IMG/VR virus record: IMGVR_UViG_3300019776_000179
Location: 1 to 25,939 of that record
DNA from: a virus
Direction: 5' to 3' (one strand)
Length of the DNA: 25,939 bases
Positions within the stretch are counted from its first letter, which is position 1. The number at the start of each line of letters is the position of its first letter. Of the stretch, positions 2,280 through 25,578 are shown piece after piece. The notes below the pieces were generated by a model. The model did no database searches, had not been told where the DNA came from, and worked only from the letters and a program-made list of their open reading frames with translations. The translations under genes were made by a program, and so were the position numbers.

Positions 2280-4019
2280 ATGGCGAAACTCAACGTCGCC
2301 ATCCCGCCCGGTGTGGTTCGCGGGGCCACCCCGCTTGATGCGCCCGGTCGCTGGTGGGACACCTCCCTCGTTCGCTGGCGCTCGGGGCAGTTAGAGCCAG
2401 TTGGCGGCTGGGTGAAGCTCAACGCGACGGCCATGAGCGATGCAGCGCGGGCCATCTACACATGGCGCACCAATGCCGATAGCGCCCTTATTGCGGTTGG
2501 CACTGAGACAAAGCTCTATGTGGACGCGGGCGATGGTCTGGTTGATCGCAGCCCTGCCAATTTGCAGTCGTTCTTGTCGCCGGGTGGATCATCCGCGGGC
2601 GGCTATTCTGCCGGAACATACGGATCTGAGAGCTATGGTACGGCGCGATCTGTGCCTTACACAGGCCCGGTTCTGACCCGTCCGTCTGCTTGGACCTTTG
2701 CCAACTTTGGCGAGGATCTAGTTGCTGTCTCGTCCGCCGATGGTCGTGTGCTGCGTTGGACTCCAACGGCCCCAATCGGCAATGCGGCAGAGGTTGGCTC
2801 ATTTTCGCTGAGCGCAATCCAGCGCACCACAAATGTAGTGACAGCCACTACATCAAAGGCGCATGGCTATGTTGTCGGGCGCTCGGTGACAATTACGGGC
2901 GTCTCAACAAGCTCGTTCAATGGCACCTTTACAATTGCCTCTGTGCCATCGACCACAACCTTCACCTTCGCCCAAACGGCGGGCGATGCTGGCCCTGTGT
3001 CCAATAGCGGTACAGTGCGCCTCACCAACGTCCCGCAGGGCAACCGCGCGGTCTTTGTTACGCCTGAGCGCCATGTCGTGCTGCTCGGCGCCAATGGTGT
3101 GGCGCGCCGCGTAGCGTGGTCAAGCCGCGAAGATGCGACGGACTGGAATTATAGCTCAACAACGAACACGGCAGGCTTTCTTGAATTGGATGCCGCCTCG
3201 TTCCTCATCACGGGCAAGGTTGTCCAACAAGGATCACTGATATGGTCGGATCGCGACCTGTATCTGATGACCTTCGTTGGAAGCCCCTTTGTCTATTCGA
3301 TCAATCGCGTCGGTGAAACCTCGCTTTACAACCCCAACATGGTCACGACCATTGCGGGACGCGCCATGTGGCTCGGCAAGGGTGGCTTTTACTTCTACGA
3401 CGGCAACCTTCGTCTCTTGGACTGCTCGGTCGTTGAATATGTGCTGGGCGACATTGACCCGACCTATGGACCCTATCGCGCCTTTGCGGCAGCGAATGGC
3501 ACATTCCCTGAAGCGTGGTTCTTCTACCCGTCTGAGGGCAATACCGAATGCAATCGCTACGTCGTCTATAACTACTTTGAGAATTGGTGGGCGATTGGCG
3601 AACTAAGCCGGACTGCCATGGCTCCGTCTGGCGCACGCTCTTATCCGCTTGCAGGCGACAAGGACGGCTTTCTATACGACCACGAGCGCGGTTGGTTGGA
3701 TGGAAACAACACCCGCATTGGTAACGTATATGCGGAGAGCGCCGTTCTCGACATTCAGAACGGTGGACGCAACCTAGTCATCACGCAGGCCATTCCGGCA
3801 ACCGGACGCGGCTATGACAGCATGAAGCTAGAGTTTTACGCCCGTCAAACGGCGGAAGGCTCAGAGCGCGTGTTTGGCCCATACGCAGCACGTCCCGATG
3901 GCTACATGGACGTTCGTGTCAATGGCCGCGATGTGCGTGTGCGGATTGAGAATGCCAAAGACGGCGACTGGGCACTTGGCAAGATGCGCCTTGAGACAAC
4001 AACGGGAGCGGATCGGTGA
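2280..4019 (+). CDS. Large virion structural protein, probable tail hub/stabilisation type
   Basis: This 579-aa protein opens with KLNVAIPPGVVRGATPLDAPGRWWDT followed by LVRWRSGQLEPVGGW. A start of this kind (GVVR.GTPY.A.GRW.D..LVRWR.G...P.GGW) is common in a large structural protein of podovirus-type phages, often annotated as a packaged-DNA stabilisation or tail hub protein. The many aromatic turns (GRVLRWTP, DRDLYLMTF, GKGGFYFYDGNLRLLDC) suggest a beta-propeller. Residues ~185-245 hold a Thr/Ser-rich inserted beta domain (TTNVVTATTSKAHGY...). There is no signal peptide or transmembrane segment. It starts three bases after the fibre gene and its stop overlaps a GTG start. The structural role is secure; P22 gp10 equivalence is a guess. 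Confidence 0.65.
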   Translation: MAKLNVAIPPGVVRGATPLDAPGRWWDTSLVRWRSGQLEPVGGWVKLNATAMSDAARAIYTWRTNADSALIAVGTETKLYVDAGDGLVDRSPANLQSFLSPGGSSAGGYSAGTYGSESYGTARSVPYTGPVLTRPSAWTFANFGEDLVAVSSADGRVLRWTPTAPIGNAAEVGSFSLSAIQRTTNVVTATTSKAHGYVVGRSVTITGVSTSSFNGTFTIASVPSTTTFTFAQTAGDAGPVSNSGTVRLTNVPQGNRAVFVTPERHVVLLGANGVARRVAWSSREDATDWNYSSTTNTAGFLELDAASFLITGKVVQQGSLIWSDRDLYLMTFVGSPFVYSINRVGETSLYNPNMVTTIAGRAMWLGKGGFYFYDGNLRLLDCSVVEYVLGDIDPTYGPYRAFAAANGTFPEAWFFYPSEGNTECNRYVVYNYFENWWAIGELSRTAMAPSGARSYPLAGDKDGFLYDHERGWLDGNNTRIGNVYAESAVLDIQNGGRNLVITQAIPATGRGYDSMKLEFYARQTAEGSERVFGPYAARPDGYMDVRVNGRDVRVRIENAKDGDWALGKMRLETTTGADR

Positions 4020-12818: not shown

Positions 12819-13051
12819 GCCTTGGTGGATATGTGCGCGCTGAATTGTTGCCATTGCACGATGGCAATGTGGAGAAAGCGTTTGCGGATCTGTGCGAGCG
12901 GTTTGCCAATTTGTCGGTCCTACTTGAGCGATCCGACCGTCTCCGGTCCTATGCCTATGCGCGTGAGATGCCGCCAAAAGCAGGCGTGATTGATGATGTG
13001 CCAGAGCCCATCACGGATGACTGGATCAAGACCGGTCAAGGAGCAGACTAA
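12815..13051 (+). CDS. Small phage protein (78 aa)
   Basis: ATG 12815 overlaps the phosphoesterase stop (ATGA) and is preferred to an in-frame ATG 93 bases upstream. The 78-aa product is acidic and mostly helical (DGNVEKAFADLCERFANLSV, then LLERSDRLRSYAYAREM). It has no membrane segment or known motif. Its stop overlaps the start of the 772-aa gene (TAATG). Coupling on both sides suggests it acts with the phosphoesterase or the large virion protein, but nothing in the sequence says which. Confidence 0.6.
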   Translation: MSLGGYVRAELLPLHDGNVEKAFADLCERFANLSVLLERSDRLRSYAYAREMPPKAGVIDDVPEPITDDWIKTGQGAD

Positions 13052-15369
13052 TGGCTGGGCTTCTCGACTTTGATATTGACCCATTGACTGGAATGCCGAT
13101 CAAGCGTGCGCCTGACCTTAAGCAAGAGCCAATCTCGCTTGATCCAAGCATTGAAGGTTATCGTCCAAGTTGGCGAGAAAGCCTTGCCGGATGGATGATG
13201 GGCGACGAAAGACCGTCGGTCGCACGTTATAATTTCGTGACGGGGCTCCTTGGAACTTCGGGAACGCCAGGATCTGAACGCCTCAATGTGGCAGACTTTA
13301 CGCCCGCAGGCATGGCGTTTGCGGGCAATGAATTTGCCAGAGCGAAAGATACCGGCGATGCATTAGGCGCCGTGCAAGCAGCCGCTGGGATGATCCCTGG
13401 TGCTAAGCCAGCGGCAGGGGCCGCAAAAAGCGCAGCAAGCCAAGTGATCCGCCGATCGACTGAGTTGCCAGCGATCCGTGAGATGCCTGTGAATGATGCG
13501 ATTGCTGTAGCGCGTAAAGAACCGCATCTGATTAAATCGGGGGATCAATCGGAAGGATTTTACATCGGCAGCCCGCGCGAAATTCAAAGCAAGCGCGGCC
13601 TCACCAATAAACGAAACGAGTTTGATGCCTATGTGGCAGCGGACGCGCGCGGCGGCGATTGGTACGATCGCTATCGCAATTCGGTTGCAGAGGTCACTGG
13701 GAACGATCCCAAGCAGAACTTGTGGATGTCAAACCTTCAAGGCCAAATGTCGGCTGGTGTTGACCCCGGTTCGGAGTTGGCGTTTTCAATCAAAGAGAAC
13801 AACAGTGCCTTGGCTGGTATGCCTGTTAAAGCAGCGCGTCCAGCCCAGCATGAGGCCTTTCTCAAAGCGCTTGCAGAAAATAATCCGTATGCCATGCAAT
13901 TAGGCGATAAGACGGGCGAATATGCTCGCTTGGTCAACCCTGATCAGGGCCGCCCCGCTGGCGCCACGGGCGTGAATGATTTCCGTCATGCGCGCAACTG
14001 GGGCTATACGGAAGCCTCTGGCGAAGCACAACGTGATGCGCTCACGCAGGCACAGCACAAATTCCTTGATTATGAAACCGCGCTCGCGGTCGATCGGGCC
14101 AATAAAGCGCAATTGGCAGGCCGTTCAAATTGGACTGGCGAGCAGTTACAGGCGGCGCCGTGGGTGCGTCAGAAAGCGTATGCGATCCTTGATCAGCGCC
14201 CAAATATGGTTCAGGCGCGCATGAAAGAAGCGCAAGCCATGCTTGAAAATGGCTATGGCACAAACTCTGGCAAGCAGCCAACGGTTGAGCAGTTAGCGCG
14301 TGAATTGGCGTATGAAGATGCTTTCCCGATTGCCAACCGCACGATCGGCGATTTCTTCGATAAGCACACCGCCTTTGCAACTTATGAAGCACAGCCCGGT
14401 CCTAGTACGCGTCATTTGAGTGGCTCAATGAATGCGTCCGAAGCTGATCGTGCAGCCTTCGCCAATGATCCACGATCGACATGGGCAAATGCACCGGGTA
14501 ATCGCGATGCGATCTATAGCGGTCTGACAGTAGGCGATACGGGCGCCGGCATGCGCGTGCGTCCGACGCAGAAAATGCAGGGGCTGTATCAGCCGCCCGG
14601 TGGATTATTGGAAACAAATCCCGGCGAGGTGGCGCGTCCCTTGGTGGCGTTCGATGCATTGGAGGGCGGGACGAAAGCCCTCCCAGCCTTTGATCGGGCT
14701 ATGCTCAATGCTGGCGAAGCTACCCGCGCTTACATTGACGCGCAGGATGCTGGTGCCGCGCATAAGGTTTGGCAGGGCGGACGAGCAAAAGATTCTAATA
14801 GTCTGTTTATTCCACAAAATGGCCCAGCCACAAAAGAACAGCTTTTGGCCGTCCAGAATGCCGCGAAAAAATACGGCCTTGGCGATGTGGTCGATACTGG
14901 GCAGGGCCTCACGGTCACGCAGTTTTATCCCGGCGCCCCAGACATGAAAAACCCAAAGGGCTTGTTAACGGATATTACAGCGGCTTCACCGACAACAGGC
15001 AAAGCTGAACGGGTCAAAGTGGACAGCATCTATCAAGACTTTGTTGATAGCTGGAAGCAGCCAGAAGGATCGGGCAATGCCACGCGGCAACTTCTAAAAG
15101 AGTTGAACGTCACACCGCAGATCCGCGAGGCATTCGACAAAAACCCGTATATCGCTCAAAACGCTTTGGCTCGCCTTGAGCGCGATGAAGCATGGTCAAA
15201 GCAATGGGGCGCTACTCGTCAAGATATTCAAAATGCCCGCCGCATTATTGGCGAAGGGCCGGGATGGGTCAGTCGTCTTGATGAGGCATTGAAGAAGGGG
15301 ATGGTCCTGCCGGCGGTTGCTGGAGCCGTGCTTCTAGGCGCTTCAGCATCTCAGGATCGTGGAGAATAG
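13051..15369 (+). CDS. Very large putative virion/ejection protein (772 aa)
   Basis: The largest gene here (772 aa). The N-terminal ~130 residues carry a Gly/Ala zone (AVQAAAGMIPGAKPAAGAAK). The central part (residues ~150-560) is a soluble alpha/beta region with no motif I recognise (NDFRHARNWGYTEAS, KFLDYETALAVDRANK, RSNWTGEQLQAAPWVRQKAY). The C-terminus ends in a hydrophobic helix (MVLPAVAGAVLLGASAS). Size, order and the Ala/Gly-rich ends suit the biggest ejection protein, comparable in place to T7 gp16. The aromatic-rich middle could be an enzymatic or polymorphic effector domain. It starts in the preceding stop and its last 101 bases overlap a leftward gene. Confidence 0.6.
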   Translation: MAGLLDFDIDPLTGMPIKRAPDLKQEPISLDPSIEGYRPSWRESLAGWMMGDERPSVARYNFVTGLLGTSGTPGSERLNVADFTPAGMAFAGNEFARAKDTGDALGAVQAAAGMIPGAKPAAGAAKSAASQVIRRSTELPAIREMPVNDAIAVARKEPHLIKSGDQSEGFYIGSPREIQSKRGLTNKRNEFDAYVAADARGGDWYDRYRNSVAEVTGNDPKQNLWMSNLQGQMSAGVDPGSELAFSIKENNSALAGMPVKAARPAQHEAFLKALAENNPYAMQLGDKTGEYARLVNPDQGRPAGATGVNDFRHARNWGYTEASGEAQRDALTQAQHKFLDYETALAVDRANKAQLAGRSNWTGEQLQAAPWVRQKAYAILDQRPNMVQARMKEAQAMLENGYGTNSGKQPTVEQLARELAYEDAFPIANRTIGDFFDKHTAFATYEAQPGPSTRHLSGSMNASEADRAAFANDPRSTWANAPGNRDAIYSGLTVGDTGAGMRVRPTQKMQGLYQPPGGLLETNPGEVARPLVAFDALEGGTKALPAFDRAMLNAGEATRAYIDAQDAGAAHKVWQGGRAKDSNSLFIPQNGPATKEQLLAVQNAAKKYGLGDVVDTGQGLTVTQFYPGAPDMKNPKGLLTDITAASPTTGKAERVKVDSIYQDFVDSWKQPEGSGNATRQLLKELNVTPQIREAFDKNPYIAQNALARLERDEAWSKQWGATRQDIQNARRIIGEGPGWVSRLDEALKKGMVLPAVAGAVLLGASASQDRGE

Positions 15370-16059: not shown

Positions 16060-17115
16060 CTAATTTTTTTCGGCCTCTTTTCGGCTCTCGGCGACCATTT
16101 TAACAACCTCGCCAAGATTGCGTTGACGACCCGCTTCGCGCACATAAATGCGCGTTGTCTTGGTGTCCCGATGGCCTAAGCCGTCCGCAATTTTCTTCTC
16201 ATCAATCCCTAAATCGGCAGCCTCTTGGGCAAGCGTTGTCCGCAAACCGTGCAGCGTTAGGTTCTTCCTGATCTTGCCATCCTTCGCAAGCGCATCGCGG
16301 ATCGTGAAAACCTGATGGCGGAATCCGTTGCCTGTCCATGGCCGTTTTTTAAGGTTGGTGAATAGGCGCAATCCACTGTGTTCTGGCATAGCGTCCAGAC
16401 GGGCTTTTAACGCCTCTGGAACGGGGTACGTCATCTCAATGCCTGTCTTGCCCGTCTTCACATGAATGGTGCCGTCTCGGTACGCTGTACGCGGTAGCTT
16501 GAGTACGTCATCGCCTCGCATGCCAAGGTGGTAGGCTGTGGCGAAGGGGGCTGCGATATGGGCCGGAGCGACTTCCAAAAACGCCTCAACCTCTTTCTTC
16601 GTCCAAGGCACATTGGCTTCGGGCGCTTGCTTACTCTTGGCAATCTTCTCCATGCCGTAGGCTGGATTTTCGGCAATGCCCATACCGTAGCGAACCGCAT
16701 GGCCTAGAACCAGCGACAAGATGGTCCCGACATAATTGGCAAAGTGACGCTTTTTCTTCCGAAAGGCTTTGTCGCGCAGCTTATAGCAAAACGGCTTTGT
16801 GAAGCTTGACAGCGGCATGTCATCCAGCGCCTTAAGCCACAGAAGCACGTTCTCATAATCGGATTTGGTGCGCGTTGCGCGCTCGGTAAAGGCAGGAGAG
16901 CGCCGATAGCTTTTGACGGCTGCGCCCCAAGTATGGGGCACGGGCTCCTTGGCCTTCAGAGACTTCTCAGCCTCGGCAAAGGCCGCAAAGAACTCTGGCG
17001 ATCCATAAACATGAGGCGGCTCAAGGCGCGTTCCTGATCGGCGATGGTAGGTGTACCAGACGCCACTCTTAGGATTGCGATACCGCTTGATGCCTTTGAC
17101 CCGCACAACGCTCAT
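16060..17115 (-). CDS. int: Tyrosine-family site-specific integrase
   Basis: A 351-aa integrase starting at ATG 17115, which overlaps the stop of the excisionase-like gene (TAATG). The catalytic set is complete: Arg200 in HLGMRGDDVLKL, a Lys near 220-223 (HVKTGKTG), His289-x-x-Arg292 in LTLHGLR, His315 in LGHRDTKTT and Tyr324 in RIYVRE. Residues ~60-155 form the SAM-like core-binding domain and residues 1-55 a small arm-binding domain (KRYRNPKSGVWYTYHRRSG). It should join attP to a host tRNA-Gln gene. It ends within the last arm repeat, right beside the tRNA-like core, and is the last gene of the leftward early operon. Confidence 0.95.
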   Translation of the reverse strand: MSVVRVKGIKRYRNPKSGVWYTYHRRSGTRLEPPHVYGSPEFFAAFAEAEKSLKAKEPVPHTWGAAVKSYRRSPAFTERATRTKSDYENVLLWLKALDDMPLSSFTKPFCYKLRDKAFRKKKRHFANYVGTILSLVLGHAVRYGMGIAENPAYGMEKIAKSKQAPEANVPWTKKEVEAFLEVAPAHIAAPFATAYHLGMRGDDVLKLPRTAYRDGTIHVKTGKTGIEMTYPVPEALKARLDAMPEHSGLRLFTNLKKRPWTGNGFRHQVFTIRDALAKDGKIRKNLTLHGLRTTLAQEAADLGIDEKKIADGLGHRDTKTTRIYVREAGRQRNLGEVVKMVAESRKEAEKN

Positions 17116-17339
17116 TAGCCCACCTTGGCAAGCCAAGCCTCATCATCTGTATCATTGGATGCAATCGGCTGACCTTGCATGCTGTCAATCCATGCGTCGA
17201 TCCGCGCAACGTCCCAACGGTGCAACCGAACCCCGCCGAGATCAAGCGGAGCAATAGGGCAAACCCGCTCAAAAACGGGAACGGACATGCCACAATAGGC
17301 AGCAGCCTCTTGGCGTGAGAGAAGGCGTTTGTCAGGCAT
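17115..17339 (-). CDS. Excisionase-like HTH protein
   Basis: A 74-aa protein with a MerR/AlpA-type winged helix: RLLSRQEAAAYCGMSVPVFE (recognition helix), then VRLHRWDVARIDAWID, the 'R.dv..ID.WI' end typical of this family. Directly upstream of and coupled to int, it is the best candidate for the excisionase or directionality factor. Some relatives act instead as regulators. It overlaps the dCMP deaminase gene by eight bases. Confidence 0.75.
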   Translation of the reverse strand: MPDKRLLSRQEAAAYCGMSVPVFERVCPIAPLDLGGVRLHRWDVARIDAWIDSMQGQPIASNDTDDEAWLAKVG

Positions 17340-24636: not shown

Positions 24637-25578
24637 ATGTATCGCTTGCTTGACCTCTTTTCCGGAATTGGCGGCTTCTCGCTCGGGCTTGAACGCTCGG
24701 GCGGGTTCAAGACGGTTGCCTTTTGTGAGGTTGAGCCGTTCTGCCAGAAAATTCTCACCAAGCATTGGCCCGAGGTTCCGATTTATGGAGACGTGCGTGA
24801 ACTTAATGCTGACCGATTGGCAGCAGACGGAATTGGAATTGACGCCATCTGCGGAGGATTCCCCTGCCAGGACATTAGCACGGCAGGAAAAGGCGCAGGC
24901 ATTGAAGGCGAGCGCAGCGGCCTATGGTCAGAGTACGCCCGTCTTATTGGCGAACTACGACCCCGCTACGTCTTCGTGGAGAACGTCGCAGCGTTGCTTA
25001 GTCGAGGGCTGGACCGCGTTCTCGGAGACTTGGCCGCGCTCGGGTATGATGCGGAATGGCACTGCATACCAGCTTCCGCCGTTGGTGCGCCTCACCGACG
25101 CGACCGCATCTGGATCGTGGCCTACACCCCGCTCATGCAGTGCAATGGCAGCGACGATCACGCCAGAGAGTGCTTGGAAGGACAACCGTTTTCCAAATTT
25201 GGAAACGGTAGTGGGCAGAGCAATGTGGCCGACGCCAGACGCCTCAATGGGAACGGGCGGCCGAACATCAAAAAATCCGCCTTGGCAGAAACGGCCAAGT
25301 GGTGCCAAGCAGCAAGTGACGTTGAACAACGCCGTCAAATGGTGGCCGACACCAACAGCCCACAACGCCAAGGAAGGCGCATTTCCAGCCGAGTATTTGA
25401 GGAACACGCCAACATTAGCTGCCCAGGCTGGTGGGAGATTGAACCCGACGTGGGTCGAGTGGCTAATGGGGTTCCCGCTTGGTCACACCGCCTTAAAGCT
25501 CTCGGAAACGCCGTAGTACCGCAAATTCCAGAGATGCTTGGTCGCGCTGTCCTTGATGCAGAGAGGGCAGCGGCATGA
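24637..25578 (+). CDS. dcm: DNA (cytosine-5-)-methyltransferase
   Basis: A 313-aa C5 methyltransferase with its motifs in order: I (LDLFSGIGGFSLGLE, SAM binding), IV (GGFPCQDIS with Cys77 the nucleophile), VI (FVENV, Glu115), VIII (HRRDRIWIV), a variable target region ~165-255, and X (RLKALGNAVVPQI). It would methylate cytosine at a site set by the target region, which cannot be read out here. No partner restriction enzyme is in the window, so it is likely an orphan that shields phage DNA from host restriction. Remarkably, a second 288-codon frame is open along most of its length. The stop overlaps the next ATG (ATGA). Confidence 0.92.
   Translation: MYRLLDLFSGIGGFSLGLERSGGFKTVAFCEVEPFCQKILTKHWPEVPIYGDVRELNADRLAADGIGIDAICGGFPCQDISTAGKGAGIEGERSGLWSEYARLIGELRPRYVFVENVAALLSRGLDRVLGDLAALGYDAEWHCIPASAVGAPHRRDRIWIVAYTPLMQCNGSDDHARECLEGQPFSKFGNGSGQSNVADARRLNGNGRPNIKKSALAETAKWCQAASDVEQRRQMVADTNSPQRQGRRISSRVFEEHANISCPGWWEIEPDVGRVANGVPAWSHRLKALGNAVVPQIPEMLGRAVLDAERAAA
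24650..25516 (+). CDS. Overlapping-frame ORF inside dcm (288 aa)
   Basis: An open frame of 288 codons shifted +1 relative to dcm. It looks like protein, not noise: SSWRTSQRCLVEGWTAF, SETWPRSGMMRNGTAYQLPP, three W-P-T-P units (near residues 183, 219 and 257) and LNPTWVEWLMGFPLGHTALK near the end. I recall these stretches as recurring in annotated phage proteins. In dcm they fall on IWIVAYTP, VADARR and VADTNS, and the last on motif X. ATG 24650 or later ATGs (24785, 24806) could start it; no strong ribosome site is seen. It is either a true overprinted gene or an open frame forced by dcm codon use. Confidence 0.4.
   Translation: MTSFPELAASRSGLNARAGSRRLPFVRLSRSARKFSPSIGPRFRFMETCVNLMLTDWQQTELELTPSAEDSPARTLARQEKAQALKASAAAYGQSTPVLLANYDPATSSWRTSQRCLVEGWTAFSETWPRSGMMRNGTAYQLPPLVRLTDATASGSWPTPRSCSAMAATITPESAWKDNRFPNLETVVGRAMWPTPDASMGTGGRTSKNPPWQKRPSGAKQQVTLNNAVKWWPTPTAHNAKEGAFPAEYLRNTPTLAAQAGGRLNPTWVEWLMGFPLGHTALKLSETP

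Follow-up and report, generated by a model that had tools for sequence, protein, structure and literature searches.

Analysis of a 25.9-kb virus-record fragment (25,939 nucleotides; "the window" below means this whole stretch of DNA) revealed a cytosine-5 DNA methyltransferase gene that contains, in its +1 frame, a second gene under selection of its own. We conclude that the two frames very probably encode a two-subunit C5 methyltransferase in which the specificity subunit is overprinted on the catalytic subunit, although the joint working of the two products is inferred and no biochemical data exist. The fragment was judged by its gene content to come from a temperate tailed phage, as it includes head and tail genes and an integrase gene (16060-17136); directly upstream of the methyltransferase gene lie genes for replication initiation and for an SSB-like protein. 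The structural region also holds an ORF of 772 codons (13051-15366) without a PHROG match. The features of the dual-coding gene are collected in Table 1, where alpha denotes the product of the methyltransferase frame and beta that of the +1 frame; the calculated pI of beta is 9.1, assuming the 243-aa product that starts at ATG 24785.

Table 1. Features of the methyltransferase gene and of the gene overprinted on it (positions in the window).
Feature	Position	Strand	Remarks
Alpha, cytosine-5 DNA methyltransferase large subunit	24637..25578	+	313 aa, ATG ORF
Possible Shine-Dalgarno GAGG	24772..24775	+	9 nt before ATG 24785
Beta, putative overprinted small subunit, +1 frame	24785..25516	+	243 aa if ATG 24785 is used; start inferred
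Conserved beta N-terminal region, TSSWRTSQRCLVEGWTAFSETWPRSGMMRNGTAYQLPPLVRL...	24968..25117	+	overprints alpha motifs VI-VIII
Cassette 1, WPTPRSCSAMAATITPESAWKDNRFPNLETVVGRAM	25118..25225	+	family of 31 among 239 betas; array positions 1, 2, 3
Alpha codons 169-278, predicted disordered linker opposite the cassettes	25141..25470	+	pLDDT about 35-50
Cassette 2, WPTPDASMGTGGRTSKNPPWQKRPSGAKQQVTLNNAVKW	25226..25342	+	family of 3
Cassette 3, WPTPTAHNAKEGAFPAEYLRNTPTLAAQAGGR	25343..25438	+	family of 94; best match 97% identical, in L015
Beta motif IX, LNPTWVEWLMGFPLGHT	25439..25489	+	nearly invariant
Alpha motif X, GNAVVP	25504..25521	+	contains the beta stop TAG (25514-25516)

Alpha resembles the catalytic half of a C5 methyltransferase. 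It matched the Pfam profile of the cytosine-5 DNA methyltransferase catalytic domain, PF00145 (E 2.4e-44), and contains motifs I (FSGIGG), IV (GFPCQ), VI (ENV), VIII (RRDR) and X (GNAVVP), with a match that covers only positions 1-164 of the 324 in the profile. Comparison of an alpha profile with PDB matched residues 10-181 of M.HhaI confidently and aligned a second, non-significant stretch with M.HhaI motif X (294-319), skipping residues 182-293. The AF2 model of alpha was confident over residues 1-168 and about 284-313, with pLDDT below 50 over most of 169-278. Judging from these alignments and from the predicted model, alpha is missing the small domain that holds the target-recognition domain (TRD) and motif IX, and it fails the criterion for an ordinary single-chain C5 methyltransferase, namely a single chain that unites the TRD and motif IX with motifs I-VIII and X. 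Alpha shares its catalytic fold and motifs with M.HhaI and ordinary single-chain Dcm proteins, but the HhaI small domain (about 182-293) is absent from it. The preliminary description of this DNA had stated that Dcm keeps every catalytic motif, which holds for motifs I-VIII and X but not for motif IX, which is absent together with the recognition domain.

The beta frame matched the phage protein family phrog_1008 over residues 62-282 (E 1.1e-33). This match, together with Paenibacillus phage Tadhana, in which both frames are annotated, confirmed the statement in the preliminary description that the same alternate-frame strings occur in annotated phage proteins. Beta matched no family in Pfam or NCBIfam, and a beta profile found no match among solved structures. 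AF2 modeling of beta alone was poor (pLDDT 59.9, 93 sequences) and a Foldseek search of the model returned no fold match, so that a small-domain fold is not shown. By its sequence, however, beta supplies both parts that alpha lacks, the recognition domain as three WPTP cassettes and then motif IX as LNPTWVEWLMGFP. The frame had been proposed to encode a partner or regulator of the methyltransferase; the first of these is supported, but the second is not, since the frame encodes the portion of the enzyme that holds the recognition cassettes and motif IX.

The +1 frame is open from TTG 24650 to 25516, 288 codons within the alpha ATG ORF, as had been claimed, and the motifs quoted from it were found in their places (SETWPRSGMM at 25022, WPTP at 25118, 25226 and 25343, and LNPTWVEWLMGFP at 25439), with the WPTP units offset by one base from VAYTP (25117), VADAR (25225) and VADTN (25342) of alpha. 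Synonymous shuffles of alpha gave a longest +1 run of 115 codons on average, compared to 292 codons in the real gene, a length matched in 2 of 5000 shuffles, and the +2 frame of the window was ordinary (53 versus 58 codons in shuffles). When homologous dcm genes were checked for stops, the +1 frame proved open in 80 of 80 viral loci picked through the alpha protein; among these matches listed, the +1 run averaged 251 codons versus 119 in synonymous shuffles, and the +2 frame was no longer than in shuffles. Locus counts here and below are counts among the matches listed and not frequencies. A chance open frame was ruled out by the synonymous shuffles, the open frames of all 80 homologues and the conservation of the beta frame.

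This conservation was assessed in blocks along the alpha codons by comparison with synonymous shuffles that kept the alpha proteins fixed. Over alpha codons 1-40, beta-frame conservation was the same as in shuffles (z 0.8 and -0.5), and constraint appeared at codons 41-60 (z 8), ranged from z 14 to 72 over codons 61-160, with values of 36-72 over codons 101-160 (the beta N-terminal region), and continued at z 14-108 in nearly every block of codons 161-300; the frame was stop-free across codons 101-280. Over codons 301-313, conservation lay below that of shuffles, the constraint ending at the beta stop. The unselected ends of the beta frame serve as internal controls for shared ancestry, and the z-scores are not to be read as probabilities because the sequences are related. 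In the reverse test, with beta fixed, alpha conservation was strong over the motifs and weak over the cassettes.

The positions of substitutions within codons gave a signal that changes along the gene, from alpha to beta and then to alpha again. In related pairs, 64% of substitutions at alpha codons 1-40 and 55% of those past the beta stop fell at the alpha third position. Within the cassettes, 53% fell at the beta third position and 27% at that of alpha, as measured only in pairs chosen by nucleotide similarity, and over the motif IX stretch 42, 30 and 28% fell at alpha positions 1, 2 and 3, respectively. The restriction to such pairs was made because frame identities (71% versus 36%) were biased by the clustering of cassette families on beta similarity, and the test was repeated on nucleotide-selected pairs. 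The placement of substitutions at beta wobble positions in the cassettes indicates that the middle of the annotated Dcm mainly codes for the other protein. Both frames are thus constrained, and the +1 frame is a genuine overlapping gene, conserved beyond the needs of alpha. The preliminary description had inferred such a gene, and both the stop-free homologues and a beta-frame conservation far above what dcm alone imposes bear it out; that both frames are translated remains our inference.

Where beta starts could be narrowed only in part. Of the frame as first listed, from TTG 24650, the first ~45 codons are unconstrained, and beta more likely begins at ATG 24785 or a nearby start, although the exact start is not settled. 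An ATG occupied the place equivalent to 24785 in 38 of 93 homologues, without enrichment over shuffles, and a single conserved beta start codon was not found in these 93 homologues, which differ from one another. Unlike other loci, one locus (L052:1090-1115) has an in-frame beta stop inside the conserved WPRSGMM block (read as WP-stop-SGT), which may reflect an error in sequencing, a beta that is broken or a start farther downstream.

Relatives of the enzyme carry the same parts in other arrangements. Single-chain actinophage enzymes (Ramsey gp69, prophiT49-1 gp22 and Jabberwocky gp4) contain, in one frame and in this order, motifs I-VIII, several LPTP units, an EWMMGWPxGWV-type motif IX and GNGVxPQQ (motif X), with a beta-profile match over their C-terminal half; relatives of the cassette-plus-motif-IX module were found in 570 actinophage records. 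In a split form, present in Streptomyces phages Samy and RemusLoopin and in locus L232, the first frame ends after motif VIII and the second holds the cassettes, motif IX and motif X; no close relatives of the Samy beta were found in viral contigs. Taken together, the in-frame fusions, the split forms and the nested forms mark beta as the part of the enzyme that comprises the recognition region and motif IX.

The identical order of parts in the single-chain relatives could also be read as a sign of programmed frameshifting, whereby ribosomes would slip +1 after motif VIII and make a fused chain instead of, or besides, beta, and the absence of a fixed beta start codon points the same way. However, beta-frame constraint can be seen from alpha codons 41-100 onward and becomes very strong over codons 101-160, upstream of any such slip, and the fused product would be without motif X. 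Because beta-frame selection starts well before the end of motif VIII, we consider a frameshift fusion improbable and retain the reading of beta as a separate subunit.

The nested arrangement prevailed in 160 further loci that were chosen through beta (80 bacterial and 80 viral, among the matches listed): in 156 of them beta lay in the +1 frame within an alpha ORF, and of the remaining four, three were partly overlapping and one was of the split form. A full-length beta without alpha was found in none of these 160 loci, again among the matches listed, which argues against an independent beta, such as a regulator or an anti-restriction factor, that is merely co-located with alpha. The location of motif IX in beta and its absence from alpha, and the existence of fused relatives, argue against it as well, so that this explanation, which can draw on the lack of direct evidence for alpha-beta binding, retains very little credibility. 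In the two-subunit enzyme that we favor, this binding is an inference.

A survey of 120 genomes from a single bacterial family showed beta accompanying those Pfam matches that end close to motif VIII and lack a C-terminal piece in frame, the exceptions to this association being fragments or short remnants, and the ordinary full-length Dcms of these genomes showed no match to the beta C-terminal half. A detailed look at four genomes found 4 truncated loci with beta and 5 full-length loci with at most a weak N-terminal match. The idea that Dcm motifs and base composition force an open, conserved-looking +1 frame has in its favor these weak matches between ordinary Dcms and the beta profile in its N-terminal half, several of them with TGA, but apart from this weak similarity it was rejected by the synonymous shuffles that keep alpha, by the codon-position flips and by the in-frame fusions elsewhere, and we give it practically no credence.

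Some loci had further peculiarities. Two short remnants of beta, neither accompanied by an alpha match (G026:C27:19532-19645 and G069:C22:409722-410027), probably represent decayed prophages. Two loci, L197 and L291, combine an intact beta with a stop in the alpha frame between motifs VIII and X, which would place the alpha motif X on a separate piece. In L164 (2740-3110) and L030 (about 2850-3182), an HNH-endonuclease-like ORF (CQECG...HHPDY...CPPCH) separates the codons of motif IX from those of motif X, with the alpha frame remaining open across the insert; it looks like a homing element at the subunit junction.

The three WPTP cassettes of the window beta are 32-39 residues each, and beta arrays comprise one to six units beginning WPTP, LPTP or FPTP, mostly of about 28-47 residues. 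The 628 units of 239 non-redundant betas fell into 73 families and 108 singletons, and 38 of the 49 families with at least three members occurred at more than one array position, next to many different neighbors. Cassette families were shared about as often (17-25%) across the range of catalytic-part identity from 30 to 80%, and in 144 pairs a cassette of at least 80% identity was shared by enzymes whose catalytic parts are less than 55% identical. Across the greater part of the catalytic region, the DNA of L149 and that of the window are about 81% identical, and the cassette stretch is unrelated. The longest cassette array seen belongs to a split enzyme of Arthrobacter phage Colucci (gp82-gp83; L333:711-2751), whose second gene has at least seven consecutive LPTP cassettes.

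Cassettes thus swap between phages, and their shuffling does not follow the catalytic part, from which we infer multiple, exchangeable specificities. The assignment of a different DNA site to each cassette is likewise an inference, from cassette position and by analogy with the multispecific Bacillus phage enzymes. We lean slightly towards a combinatorial multispecific enzyme, in which the swapping of cassettes among distant phages would change the set of methylated sites, and in which the swapped DNA would have to stay readable in the alpha frame.

Comparison with known enzymes showed partial likeness to several of them. The small subunit of M.EcoHK31I is encoded within the large-subunit gene in another frame. 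M.EcoHK31I (YGGCCR) and M.AquI (CYCGRG) are both two-polypeptide C5 methyltransferases, and the large subunit of M.EcoHK31I has motifs I-VIII and X and its smaller polypeptide motif IX (PMC3404938), the same distribution as in the window pair. The predicted TRD of M.EcoHK31I was assigned to the large subunit (PMC3404938), whereas the codon-position signal places the recognition stretch of the window in beta, with one to six exchangeable cassettes in relatives; in addition, M.EcoHK31I belongs to an R-M system and the window pair is found in a phage. Since constraint on the cassettes acts in the beta frame, the window pair was not filed as an M.EcoHK31I-type member. A DNA search of E. coli genomes gave no match, so no M.EcoHK31I relative was at hand for comparison. 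M.AquI is similar in having motifs I-VIII on one subunit and a distal variable region with motif IX on the other (PMC3404938), a layout that Samy, RemusLoopin and L232 resemble. However, motif X of M.AquI is on its small subunit, whereas that of the window is in alpha, beta ending within the motif X codons; by the criterion of motif X on the small subunit, the window fails and Samy and RemusLoopin pass.

In the multispecific Bacillus enzymes, the module size is about 40 aa. The betas meet the criterion of the multispecific type, tandem exchangeable modules between motifs VIII and IX, and the enzymes of Bacillus phages SPR, phi3T, rho11 and H2 likewise have tandem recognition domains and several target sequences (PMC8936443). 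In contrast to the window modules, which bear the WPTP signature and lie on a separate overprinted chain, these enzymes are single chains in one frame. Beta is a member of phrog_1008, whose name, 'DNA methyltransferase', omits the alternate-frame location and the role as recognition subunit, and some phage annotators label beta of the phrog_1008 type 'DNA methyltransferase domain protein'. No description of a nested phage methyltransferase pair was found in the literature searched.

We propose that alpha (frame 0) would form the catalytic part, providing AdoMet binding and the catalytic Cys, with motifs I-VIII followed by a disordered stretch and motif X, and that beta (+1), translated by internal initiation, would form the specificity part, made up of the N-terminal region, then three cassettes of the WPTP type that serve recognition, and motif IX. 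The N-terminal region of beta would probably dock on alpha, and the associated subunits would make one enzyme that methylates the phage genome. Such methylation would most likely protect the genome against host restriction, a role that is inferred only.

These results indicate that many phage 'Dcm' genes annotated as complete appear to be the catalytic half only, and that beta, the recognition half, is usually missing from genome annotations. A Dcm cloned singly from the annotated frame would probably lack activity or specificity. In addition, the gene is dual-coding over a long stretch, with the selected frame switching along its length, and its fused and split relatives allow its origin to be reconstructed. 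If it is true that each cassette reads its own site, the cassette families would supply the parts with which to test site reading, and the cassette content of a phage would predict which restriction systems it evades.
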